From positions 1-34,221 of the forward strand of contig CAKQKT010000009.1 in assembly GCA_934249275.1 (NCBI GenBank): 34,221 bases of DNA, written 5' to 3'. This DNA is from an uncultured Sutterella sp. (lineage in GTDB: Bacteria > Pseudomonadota > Gammaproteobacteria > Burkholderiales > Burkholderiaceae_F). A program made the translations under genes and the position numbers. The notes below the pieces were generated by a model. The model was not told the DNA's origin. It made no database searches and was given only the letters and a program-made list of their open reading frames with translations. Shown one piece after another: positions 2,260-5,400 of the stretch; the first letter of the stretch is position 1; each line of letters starts with the position of its first letter.

Positions 2260-3543
2260 TTAGGCGGCAATTTCAGCAAACGTTTCGCGGGCGGCGGCGA
2301 TGGTCGCATCAATGACTTCGTCGGTGTGCATGATCGAAACGAAGCCGGCTTCGAAGACGGACGGAGCAAAATAGACGCCGCGTTCAAGCATGCCGTGGAA
2401 GAAACGGTTGAACGTTTCAGTGTCGGACTTCATCACGTCGGCAAAGCCGTGCGGGATGGACGGCAGGAAGTAAAGGCCGAACATGCCGCCGACGCTGTCG
2501 GCGCAGAAGGTGATGCCGTTTTCCTGAGCGGCGGACGTGAGCCCCTTGACGAGGCGGTCGGCAGCGTGCGAGAGCTTGTCCTGAAAGCCGGGAGCCTGAA
2601 TGCCCTTGAGGGTGGCGAGACCGCAGGCGACGGCAACGGGATTGCCGGAGAGCGTGCCGGCCTGATAAACAGGACCCAGCGGTGCGATCTGCTGCATGAT
2701 TTCACGACGGCCGCCGAAGGCTGCGACGGGCATGCCGCCGCCAATCACCTTGCCGAGCATCGTGAGGTCGGGTTCGATGCCGTAGAAGGCCTGAGCGCCG
2801 CCCTGAGCTACACGGAATCCCGTCATCACTTCGTCGACGATGAGGACGGCGCCGTACTTGGTGCAGAGCTCTCGCATCGTGCGAAGGAATTCGATATTGC
2901 CGCGAACCATGTTCATGTTGCCGGCCACGGCTTCAACAATTACGCAGGCGATGTCGTCGCCCCACTGAGCGAAGGCGTCTTCAAGCTGCTGCGGGTTGTT
3001 GTACTCGAGAACGAGCGTGTGTTCCGTCACGGAGGCCGGAACGCCGGCGGAGGACGGATTGCCGAAGGTAAGCATGCCCGAGCCGGCCTTGACGAGAAGC
3101 GAGTCGGAGTGGCCGTGGTAGCAGCCCTCGAACTTGATGATCTTGTTGCGCCCCGTATAGCCGCGGGCGAGTCGAATGGCAGACATGCCGGCTTCCGTGC
3201 CGGAGCTGACGAGACGAACCTGATCCATGGACGGCACGAGCTTGCGGACTTCTTCGGCGATGAGCGTTTCGCCCTGCGTGACGGCGCCGAAGGAAAGTCC
3301 CTTGGAAACGGCTTCGTCGACGGCGGCGATGACTTCATCATTGTTGTGGCCGAGAATCATCGGCCCCCAGGAGAGAATGTAGTCAATGAACTGCTTGCCG
3401 GTCGCGTCCCACATGTAGGGACCCTTGGCGTGATCAATGAAGCGCGGGGAACCGCCGACGGAGCGGAAGGCACGCACGGGAGAATTCACCCCGCCCGGAA
3501 TAGAGATCTGCGCACGCTGGAAGAGTTCGTCATTGAGGTCCAT
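2260..3543 (-). CDS. hemL: Glutamate-1-semialdehyde 2,1-aminomutase
   Basis: This 427-residue PLP enzyme converts glutamate-1-semialdehyde to 5-aminolevulinate, the last step of the C5 route to tetrapyrroles, in the cytoplasm. The PLP-binding lysine is K265 in [11 protein letters not shown], and the phosphate-binding segment [12 protein letters not shown] and the motif KFEGCYHGH are present. The length equals the usual family size. One small oddity is glycine at residue 119, where most homologues that I recall have threonine in SGTEATMSA. The ATG at 3543 has AGGAG eight bases upstream (3552-3556). The gene is first in a two-gene minus-strand unit with the disulfide reductase. Haem supply and cytochrome/thiol maturation are loosely related, but the pairing may be only positional. 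Confidence 0.96.
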
Positions 3544-3623
3544 TTGTTCAACTCCTGAAAGCCTGAAACATGTCCTCGACGGCCTTTCTTGGGGCGGCCG
3601 ATGAGGATGAAAACTGAAAAAAA

Positions 3624-3646
3624 GGCGGCCTTCGAAGCAGGCCGCC
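3624..3646 (-). terminator. Intrinsic terminator after the pagP fusion
   Basis: On the minus strand a hairpin with arms GGCGGCC and GGCCGCC (outer bounds 3624-3646) is followed by seven T residues (complement of 3617-3623). It sits directly downstream of the stop of the PagP fusion gene and upstream of hemL, so it should insulate hemL from pagP transcription. Confidence 0.85.
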
Positions 3647-3731
3647 CGAAAATCTTTAAATTGTACCGAAACAGTCTGAACGCACCGTTAACGAATGTTC
3701 CGAAAACGTTGCGGGCTGAGACTGCGGAGGG

Positions 3732-4886
3732 TTAGAACGCCATGCCCAGCGAGAGAGTGAAGTCGGTCGACATGGGCTTGAGCACGTAGTTGTCTTCGCG
3801 GCCTTCAACCGTGCCCTTGTAGCGGGCGAATGACGTGAACATTTCTGCATTGAGGAAGATGTTCTTGGTAAGCGCGTAAGTTGTACCGAGCGAGGTGACG
3901 AGATGGAGGCTGTCGTCCTTGCCGGCGGGTCCCTTCATCTTGGAATAACCCAGGCCGCCGCCGCCATAGAGCCGCAGACTGTCGAGAGCGTCGATGTTGT
4001 ACTGAAGCTGAACTGCCCAGGTCTGGAATCGATAGGAGCGGCTCGTGTCCGTACCGGCCGTCTTGATGTCGTGCTCGGAGCGGCGGTAGGAAATATCGGT
4101 CGCCCAGTTGCGTCCCGAGTAATGGCGCATGCCGACATGCCAGGAGCTGTCGTTCTTGACGGTGCTCGGTGAATACTCCTCGCCGTTGTCCATGTATTCC
4201 CAGCCCAGGCCGCCGTAAATATAGTTGCGGTCGCTGCTCCAGGCGCTCGTCGCGGGCAGCGGCAGGTCTCGACGCTTGGCGTCGTCGATCGTGATCGTGG
4301 AATAGAAGAAGAATACGTTTGTAACCGGAATGTACACGCCGTAGAAGGAGACGTCGTCCGTGCCCACCTTGGCCACAGGCAGCGGCATCGGGAAGGGGAT
4401 CCACATGTAGTCGCCGCGAGCGGAGATGGAGGCAAGGTAGCCGGCGCCGACATGAAGTCCCGTGCCGGCGATCGGCCAGCGGGCGACCCACTGGTAGCCT
4501 GCGACCGGTTCGGGGCGGTAGTTGGAGTCAACAAAGGTCACGAGGAATAGAGTGCGTTCGTTACCGCGCTCGTCGATGACTTGACGACCAAGCCCCATGC
4601 CGAAGGGATAGCCGTTTTCCTCGGCGCGGTTGTCCCAGCACCAGCTGGGGTGGTTCGTGTAGGTCGGAACAATCCAGACGTTGCTGCCGTTCTTCATGAT
4701 GGCCTGAGAGCCGCGGACGGTGTCCTGCCAGAAGGAACCAAAATCGCCGGGGCGTTCGGCGGAGGAAGATACGTAGCCGGCCGGCGTTGTGTCAATTATG
4801 GCTTCGAGAAAACCGGCGTGAGCCTGGCCGGCGGCGAAGACTGCGACTGCCGATGCCGCGGCAAGCGGTTTCATTTTGATATTCAT
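3732..4886 (-). CDS. pagP: PagP lipid A acyltransferase fused to a second outer-membrane beta-barrel
   Basis: This 384-residue protein has a signal peptide ending in QAHA (cleavage after A24). Residues 50-200 match PagP, the outer-membrane enzyme that moves an acyl chain from phospholipid to lipid A. They comprise an amphipathic helix (about 52-66), VPTYTNHPSW with H79, FVDSNYRPEP with D120-S121, the segment VAGYQW, and a close match over YMWIPFPMPLPVAKVG and YGVYIPVTN. H79, D120 and S121 correspond to the E. coli catalytic triad H33, D76 and S77. A linker (201-219) joins this to a second region (220-384) with eight alternating amphipathic strands, ending in phenylalanine as BAM substrates do. 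That region resembles OmpA/OmpX-size barrels. PagP alone is about 160-190 residues, so this is roughly double length. The ATG at 4886 was chosen because it begins the signal peptide; it has no clear Shine-Dalgarno. The gene diverges from rnpB. PagP identity is confident; the second barrel is inferred from pattern. Confidence 0.85.
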   Translation of the reverse strand: MNIKMKPLAAASAVAVFAAGQAHAGFLEAIIDTTPAGYVSSSAERPGDFGSFWQDTVRGSQAIMKNGSNVWIVPTYTNHPSWCWDNRAEENGYPFGMGLGRQVIDERGNERTLFLVTFVDSNYRPEPVAGYQWVARWPIAGTGLHVGAGYLASISARGDYMWIPFPMPLPVAKVGTDDVSFYGVYIPVTNVFFFYSTITIDDAKRRDLPLPATSAWSSDRNYIYGGLGWEYMDNGEEYSPSTVKNDSSWHVGMRHYSGRNWATDISYRRSEHDIKTAGTDTSRSYRFQTWAVQLQYNIDALDSLRLYGGGGLGYSKMKGPAGKDDSLHLVTSLGTTYALTKNIFLNAEMFTSFARYKGTVEGREDNYVLKPMSTDFTLSLGMAF

Positions 4887-5075: not shown

Positions 5076-5383
5076 GAAACTTTTCCAGACGATCGTCGGC
5101 GGAGCAATCCGCGGGAGGAAAGTCCGGACTCCGCAGGGCACCGTAGCAGCTAACGGCTGTCCGCCGCGAGGCGAGGATTAGAGCAACAGAGACGAGCCGG
5201 CGTTAGGGTCGGTTGAAACGGGCAATCTCTACGGGGAGCAACATCAAATAGGCAGCCGATGGTTCGGCCCGGACCGGCTGCGGGTAGATGGCTTGAGGCG
5301 CCGCGCGAGCGTCGTCCTAGACGAATGATCGTCACTGCGTTTTCGGACGCGGAACATAATCCGGCTTATCGGGGGAGTTTCCG
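5076..5383 (+). ncRNA. rnpB: RNase P RNA (M1 RNA, bacterial type A)
   Basis: This is the catalytic RNA of RNase P, which removes 5' leaders from tRNA precursors. The conserved core GAGGAAAGTCCGGACTCC is present, followed by an ACAGAGA segment, GGTTGAAACGGG, TAGACGAATGATCGTC and ACATAATCCGGCTTAT, in the usual order and spacing. The ends were set by helix P1: 5076-5086 pairs with 5371-5381 over 11 bp including G-T wobbles. The length of about 308 nt is typical for a betaproteobacterial type A RNA. It has its own promoter and a strong terminator. The ends may be off by a few bases. Confidence 0.96.
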
Positions 5384-5400
5384 GTCATCCAATAGCAAAA

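Follow-up and report, generated by a model that had tools for sequence, protein, structure and literature searches.

A 34,221-nucleotide stretch of DNA from an uncultured Sutterella sp. (contig CAKQKT010000009.1; hereafter the window) encodes, in a single 384-residue open frame read on the sequence from ATG to stop (4886-3732, minus strand), a protein in which the outer-membrane acyltransferase PagP is followed by a second beta-barrel. By fold, motif and Pfam assignment the protein is a PagP with a new architecture, and its second barrel (barrel 2) is derived from OmpW yet fails the OmpW hallmarks tested. Neither a PagP fusion nor a natural tandem of two eight-stranded barrels was found described in the literature, in a search that covered few subscription journals. 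The explanation that we favour, and hold to be about evenly poised between right and wrong, is that of a two-barrel outer-membrane acyltransferase in which a closed, OmpW-derived barrel acts as a built-in partner of PagP, as its handle for assembly and perhaps as a setter of its activity.

The N-terminal half matches the PagP family of Pfam (PF07017) over residues 63-193, with an expectation value (E) of 3.4e-26 and 91.8 bits against a cut-off of 24. Of solved structures, those of E. coli PagP are clearly related by sequence (residues 72-192, E about 7e-19), and two other rows, weak at E 0.3 and 0.8, were unrelated. Residues H79, D120 and S121 align with H33, D76 and S77 of E. coli PagP, which we take to be its catalytic residues, and His, Asp and Ser occupy these positions in 72/72 aligned sequences, so that the PagP motifs read in the preliminary description of this DNA are borne out by Pfam and by alignment alike. 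This alignment (A1) consists of the window protein and 71 of 92 relatives recovered by a protein search, the majority of them with both Pfam domains listed; the 21 left out were fragments, chimeras and some sequences with long or odd extensions. The match to the NCBIfam equivalog for lipid IV(A) palmitoyltransferase PagP (NF008271) is below threshold (94.2 bits, cut-off 155) and so does not by itself confer the name of that enzyme.

Residue counts were made on 55 fused rows, which often hold the same gene twice since loci came from two tools (38 distinct rows do not), and on 34 of 44 standalone rows, ten with less than 60 bits being left out. Positions R114, D115 and P127 are kept in 55/55 fused rows and P144 in 52/55, and P28 (48/55) and P50 (44/55) vary, as they do in standalone PagPs; the four prolines are presumably the lipid gates of PagP. 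Judging by the residues examined, the PagP half could be active. Where E. coli PagP has Gly88, which we assume to be the floor of the hydrocarbon ruler, the window protein has Gln132. This position is Gly or Ala in 33/34 standalone and in 24/38 distinct fused rows, and is Gln in the window, in its relatives L001 and L002 and in both copies of L007. Provided that the ruler operates as it does in E. coli, the window enzyme should choose an acyl chain shorter than palmitate.

The window protein resembles E. coli PagP (CrcA; PDB 1thq, 3gp6) in fold, catalytic His, Asp and Ser, P127, P144 and N-terminal helix. The helix of PagP is described in PMC2887491; for the window helix (residues 49-66) the assignment is by DSSP only, its amphipathic character being taken from its position. 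The standalone PagPs compared (34 rows, among them that of E. coli and the locus L027) stop at the enzyme barrel, whereas in the window protein 184 more residues follow residue 200, and the C-terminal end of the PagP half has changed in fused rows from the standalone pattern. A further difference is an N-terminal extension with a DTTPAG motif, absent from E. coli PagP, in which T33, P35 and G37 are kept in at least 90% of A1. The pattern DT[TLV]P.G occurs in 25/55 fused rows and in 1/44 standalone rows, that one being L027. The standalone sister of the fused PagPs thus also has a DTTP-type extension before the clamp helix, which is therefore perhaps older than the fusion.

The AlphaFold2 model of the window protein has a mean predicted local distance difference test score (pLDDT) of 91.1 and a predicted template modelling score of 0.87, and contains two eight-stranded barrels rather than one of 16 strands. 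The helix is followed by eight strands over residues 68-200, an irregular segment at 201-220 and eight strands over 221-383; low pLDDT (51-57) is found in residues 1-20, within the putative signal peptide, whose cleavage site was placed by a rule that we assume to hold. For a relative at 34% identity the same program likewise gives two eight-stranded barrels, and in structure comparison the eight-stranded units of both models match eight-stranded barrels one by one. The tandem double barrel, first proposed from the letters of the sequence, is therefore supported as a prediction, with residues 220-384 forming a predicted barrel separate from that of PagP. The linker expected ahead of the second barrel measures 18-21 residues in 72/72 aligned sequences. 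The eight strands and terminal Phe anticipated in the C-terminal part agree with the modelled strands and with conservation of F384, which is Phe in 72/72 aligned relatives and in 107/107 distinct barrel-2 rows.

Barrel 2 matches Pfam OMP_b-brl (PF13505) over residues 210-384 (E 1.5e-11, 45.3 bits against a cut-off of 28.7), and the window's own copy has no match to OmpW (PF03922) at E up to 1. The PF03922 cut-off is passed by the fused frames of six genomes (G039, G040, G050, G041, G010 and G055), five of which belong to the deepest branch within the fused clade, and 14 of the 31 barrel-2 sequences that make up a second alignment (A2) match this family at E up to 0.01. Outside the family, the best matches of A2 among 399 genomes of the order are standalone frames of 203-267 residues (23 loci, E down to 9e-20). 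Together with two from family genomes without PagP, 25 standalone frames were read, of which 20 were aligned and 8 scanned with Pfam; all 8 have OmpW (PF03922) as their best match (E 7e-31 to 9e-46). Comparison of A2 with the 20 aligned OmpW frames by hhalign gave 99.6% (E 5e-24, 146 columns), a figure that is partly circular, the OmpW rows having been found with the barrel-2 profile. Comparisons with single E. coli sequences, which are not circular, gave 89.4% for OmpW (143 columns), 53.2% for OmpA (67), 51.2% for OmpX (41) and 0.6% for PagP, and five column-shuffled versions of A2 scored 0.0-0.4%. In hmmsearch, the A2 profile scored 18.9 bits with OmpW, 16.1 with OmpA, 9.6 with OmpX and 0.7 with PagP, the lead of OmpW over OmpA being narrow. 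Among solved structures the profile matches AlkL best, a member of the OmpW family (E 7.4e-7). We conclude that barrel 2 is of OmpW descent, which is new here, and that in Sutterella it is far diverged; the earlier likening to a barrel of OmpA/OmpX size holds as regards the eight modelled strands and falls short as regards origin. In 39 of the 40 genomes with the fusion, no OmpW above the Pfam cut-off was found outside the fused frame, so that they show no OmpW-like barrel other than barrel 2. The exception, G010, has a separate OmpW (L159 1467-2339) on a 5.4-kb contig of a metagenome-assembled genome (MAG), and contamination is therefore possible.

Barrel 2 shares with the OmpW family (OmpW 2f1t, OprG 2x27, AlkL 6qam) its profile, fold, polar lumen residues Glu/Asp63 and His72 and terminal Phe, and differs in that it lacks the gate prolines, has a polar channel floor, is fused behind PagP and has no signal peptide of its own. 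OmpW positions were fixed by profile alignment to OprG, and 20 OmpW rows were compared with the 107 barrel-2 rows (from 111 counted first), many of which are close relatives and so not independent. Among the lateral-opening prolines, P94 and P95 are Pro in 20/20 OmpW rows, against 4/107 and 0/107 in barrel 2; P69 is Pro in 0/107, and in this alignment only 14/20 OmpW rows have Pro there. The window has Ser270, Thr289 and Trp290 at P69, P94 and P95 (residue numbers counted by hand). At the channel floor, V65 is Ile or Val in 20/20 OmpW rows and in 0/107 barrel-2 rows, 89 of which have Ser, Lys or Asn. The polar lumen positions are kept (E63 as Asp or Glu in 106/107, H72 as His in 102/107). W170 was uninformative as a channel marker, being Lys in all 20 OmpW rows. 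The changed gate prolines and floor indicate that OmpW channel features were lost after or around capture; the four rows that keep P94 (L028, L029, L035 and L043) all lie on the deepest branch, with P94 apparently lost after P69, P95 and the floor had changed.

The preliminary description had asked whether the fusion is conserved across the family or whether a sequencing error joins two genes here; in the relatives the two parts form one gene. Among 67 genomes of Sutterella's family examined, PagP was found in 40 and not in 27, and in 40/40 barrel 2 lies directly behind it, in 39 within one open frame of at least 380 residues and in G002 split by a TAG. A contig database yielded 27 loci, 25 with both parts in one open frame, L003 interrupted by a TAG and L027 with PagP alone; the nearest relative there (L001, Sutterella wadsworthensis 2_1_59BFAA) is 88% identical over the whole protein. 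The TAG of L003, from a canine Sutterella MAG, lies inside the PagP half (frames ending and starting near 5376; also L057) and reflects a pseudogene or a sequence error. One Sutterella genome (G060) carries two fused pagP-ompW genes in tandem (L007 5001-7496; L158 4299-6791). In wider samples, which include some family members, PagP occurs in 57/399 genomes of the order and 15/369 of the class. At 44 PagP loci outside the family (30 in the order, 14 in the class) the second barrel is absent, as no frame extends more than 27 residues past the PagP match; at the remaining outside-family PagP places, for which no locus was taken, the frames measure 72-293 residues.

In a tree of 72 distinct PagP domains, all 38 fused ones fall on one side of a single branch (support 100/98), which corresponds to one change. 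The neighbour of this clade (97/96) is L027, a 201-residue standalone PagP ending in Phe from a proteobacterial MAG, located beside what, from its proteins, we take to be a urease cluster. The PagP alignment and tree exclude L003 and L057 (TAG inside), L066 (TGA) and L091. A gene resembling hemL adjoins the fused gene in 22 of the 26 contig-database loci with both parts, and one resembling dsbD is also present in 16 (tblastn; both names presumed). Neither was found at L020, L021 or L025, and the contig of L016 ends there. The RNase P RNA gene lies 122-351 bases from the fused gene, on the side opposite to hemL, in 10 of 12 loci scanned; in L012 it is about 4 kb away, and at L025 it was not found. 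Given the one-clade tree, the family-wide fusion and the conserved neighbours, the fusion most simply would have arisen once and then been inherited mostly in place.

According to the partner explanation, the N-terminal barrel has most likely remained an enzyme that transfers an acyl chain from phospholipid to lipid A, its catalytic residues being kept. The C-terminal barrel is of OmpW descent, and its sequence has lost the lateral gate and hydrophobic floor; because these are lost, barrel 2 most likely no longer conducts hydrophobic molecules and would be a closed, domesticated partner. Insertion by the barrel assembly machinery (BAM) probably depends on barrel 2, since the only terminal Phe is there and the end of the PagP half has changed; the last strand with its Phe is presumably the signal for BAM. 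Barrel 2 would pack beside PagP, which would always be assembled and held as half of a fixed pair, and may set its activity in the way that OmpA lowers the activity of E. coli PagP in trans. For the E. coli proteins in proteoliposomes, according to Machin, Ranson and Radford 2025 (PMC7617971), OmpA cuts PagP activity to about 35% and the OmpA barrel alone to about 45%. Both that pair and the window protein place an eight-stranded barrel beside PagP in one membrane, although the former concerns two separate proteins with activity measured and the latter one chain known from sequence and models. The most complete version, in which an OmpW transport barrel, captured once behind PagP, has had its lateral gate shut and is now a permanent partner in cis, necessarily co-inserted by BAM and setting the activity of the enzyme, is possible but rather doubtful.

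Several observations weigh against this explanation. A strict terminal Phe is unneeded even by standalone PagP, only 13/34 of which end in Phe (8 others end in Leu, Tyr or Met, tallied as 4, 3 and 2, and the rest in Lys, Asn, Gln or Glu). OmpX, also eight-stranded, left PagP activity unchanged in PMC7617971; regulation by an adjacent barrel is therefore not a given, and a fixed partner may or may not be of consequence to PagP. The OmpW channel residue P199 survives in 93/107 barrel-2 rows, although it is Ser in the window. AlphaFold2 lacks a membrane and can set barrels side by side without a real interface. Ratios of nonsynonymous to synonymous substitution rates (dN/dS by NG86; dS exceeds 1 in four of the eight comparisons) indicate that both halves are under purifying selection when compared with the two nearest relatives (PagP 0.14 and 0.18, barrel 2 0.11 and 0.16), and against L004 and L005 they are 0.15 and 0.27 for PagP and 0.38 and 0.42 for barrel 2. 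Mean pairwise identity is 42% in barrel 2 and 59% in PagP; barrel 2 evolves faster. This is not what a tight regulatory interface predicts, though it fits a scaffold.

Another possibility, to which we give a small share of belief, is a plain fusion in which an OmpW joined pagP once and the pair is retained since, by itself, the PagP half is no longer able to terminate and insert, as in constructive neutral evolution. The single origin in the PagP tree, the scarcity of other OmpW genes in fused genomes, the changed internal PagP end and the lost gate residues all agree with it. The purifying selection on barrel 2 against near relatives and the retention of the fusion family-wide speak against it, neither decisively. 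Such a neutral reading, with the halves simply bound to each other, is almost as good a fit as the partner explanation and overlaps with it.

Slightly less probable again is that barrel 2 is still a conduit of the OmpW/AlkL type, through which small hydrophobic molecules or the lysophospholipid product of PagP would pass into or out of the outer membrane near the enzyme. Its OmpW descent, AlkL as best solved match, the survival of P199 and the sideways release of hydrophobic molecules proposed for OmpW channels in PMC2993939 point that way; the restriction of P94 to four deepest-branch rows points the other. Equally improbable is an outward role of barrel 2 towards host or environment, in which its loops would bind an outside ligand, as in Ail, OmpX or Opa, or lipopolysaccharide, and bring PagP there. 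The faster change of barrel 2 and its longest modelled loop, 20 residues (353-372) between strands 7 and 8, are consistent with this, but the other outer loops have at most 14 residues, and the results weakly favour an assembly-signal or partner role over an external-ligand role.

A single 16-stranded barrel (an engineered tandem duplication of OmpX reportedly gives one larger pore) or a joining error of two genes is very improbable, since both models show two eight-stranded units, which already contradicts a single barrel, the joined frame recurs in 39 genomes, and all 10 barrel-2-only matches proved to be truncated or shifted parts of the fused gene.

The features of the locus are collected in Table 1. 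The hairpin comes from a consensus scan that found 5 sites where 2.1 were expected. Near the fused locus of Duodenibacillus massiliensis, part of a group II intron (RF02001) was observed (L022 2929-3098). Among metagenome contigs, the proteins P0004, P0005, P0064, P0092 and P0093 combine part of PagP with an enzyme resembling 5'-nucleotidase and look like reciprocal products (P0004 and P0092 were read as sequence and the others judged by Pfam listing); in P0091, also read, part of PagP is joined to a phosphofructokinase. Chimeric assembly is the probable cause of these joins, and the nucleotidase portion of P0092 could not be found in genome G001.

Table 1. Features of the fused gene and its surroundings in the window.
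Feature	Position	Strand	Basis
Fused pagP-ompW-like gene, 384 residues	3732..4886	-	open frame; Pfam PF07017 and PF13505
Sec-type signal peptide, residues 1-24, ending AHA (putative)	4815..4886	-	sequence reading
N-terminal extension with DTTPAG motif, residues 25-44	4755..4814	-	alignment
Helix, residues 49-66, at the place of the PagP amphipathic clamp helix	4689..4742	-	DSSP on model
PagP eight-stranded barrel, residues 68-200	4287..4685	-	
Catalytic His79 (E. coli H33)	4650..4652	-	72/72 relatives, 55/55 fused rows
Catalytic Asp120-Ser121 (E. coli D76-S77)	4524..4529	-	72/72 relatives, 55/55 fused rows
Gln132 at the place of E. coli Gly88, floor of hydrocarbon ruler	4491..4493	-	alignments; role of Gly88 presumed
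Linker between barrels, residues 201-220	4227..4286	-	no strand in model
Second eight-stranded barrel, residues 221-384, OmpW-derived	3735..4226	-	Pfam, model, profile comparisons
Last strand with terminal Phe, residues 373-384, the chain's only C-terminal assembly signal	3735..3770	-	F384 conservation
Terminator-like hairpin, downstream of fused gene	3623..3647	-	consensus scan only
RNase P RNA gene, divergent neighbour, position conserved	5077..5384	+	10 of 12 loci scanned
hemL-like aminomutase frame, downstream neighbour	2260..3543	-	tblastn

PagP is among the small number of enzymes known in the outer membrane and is widely used as a model of barrel folding. A natural fusion that occurs family-wide allows a direct test of how BAM assembles a barrel without a free C-terminal strand, and is a case of a captured transport barrel that has since lost the features of a channel. 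It would also test whether barrel-barrel contacts tune outer-membrane enzymes, an effect shown in trans in PMC7617971. The fusion further suggests a construction of lipid A acylation in gut Sutterellaceae that departs from the enterobacterial one. That the gut bacterium Sutterella and its relatives appear to make one chain from an enzyme barrel and a barrel descended from another membrane protein raises the question of how and why such pairs come about.
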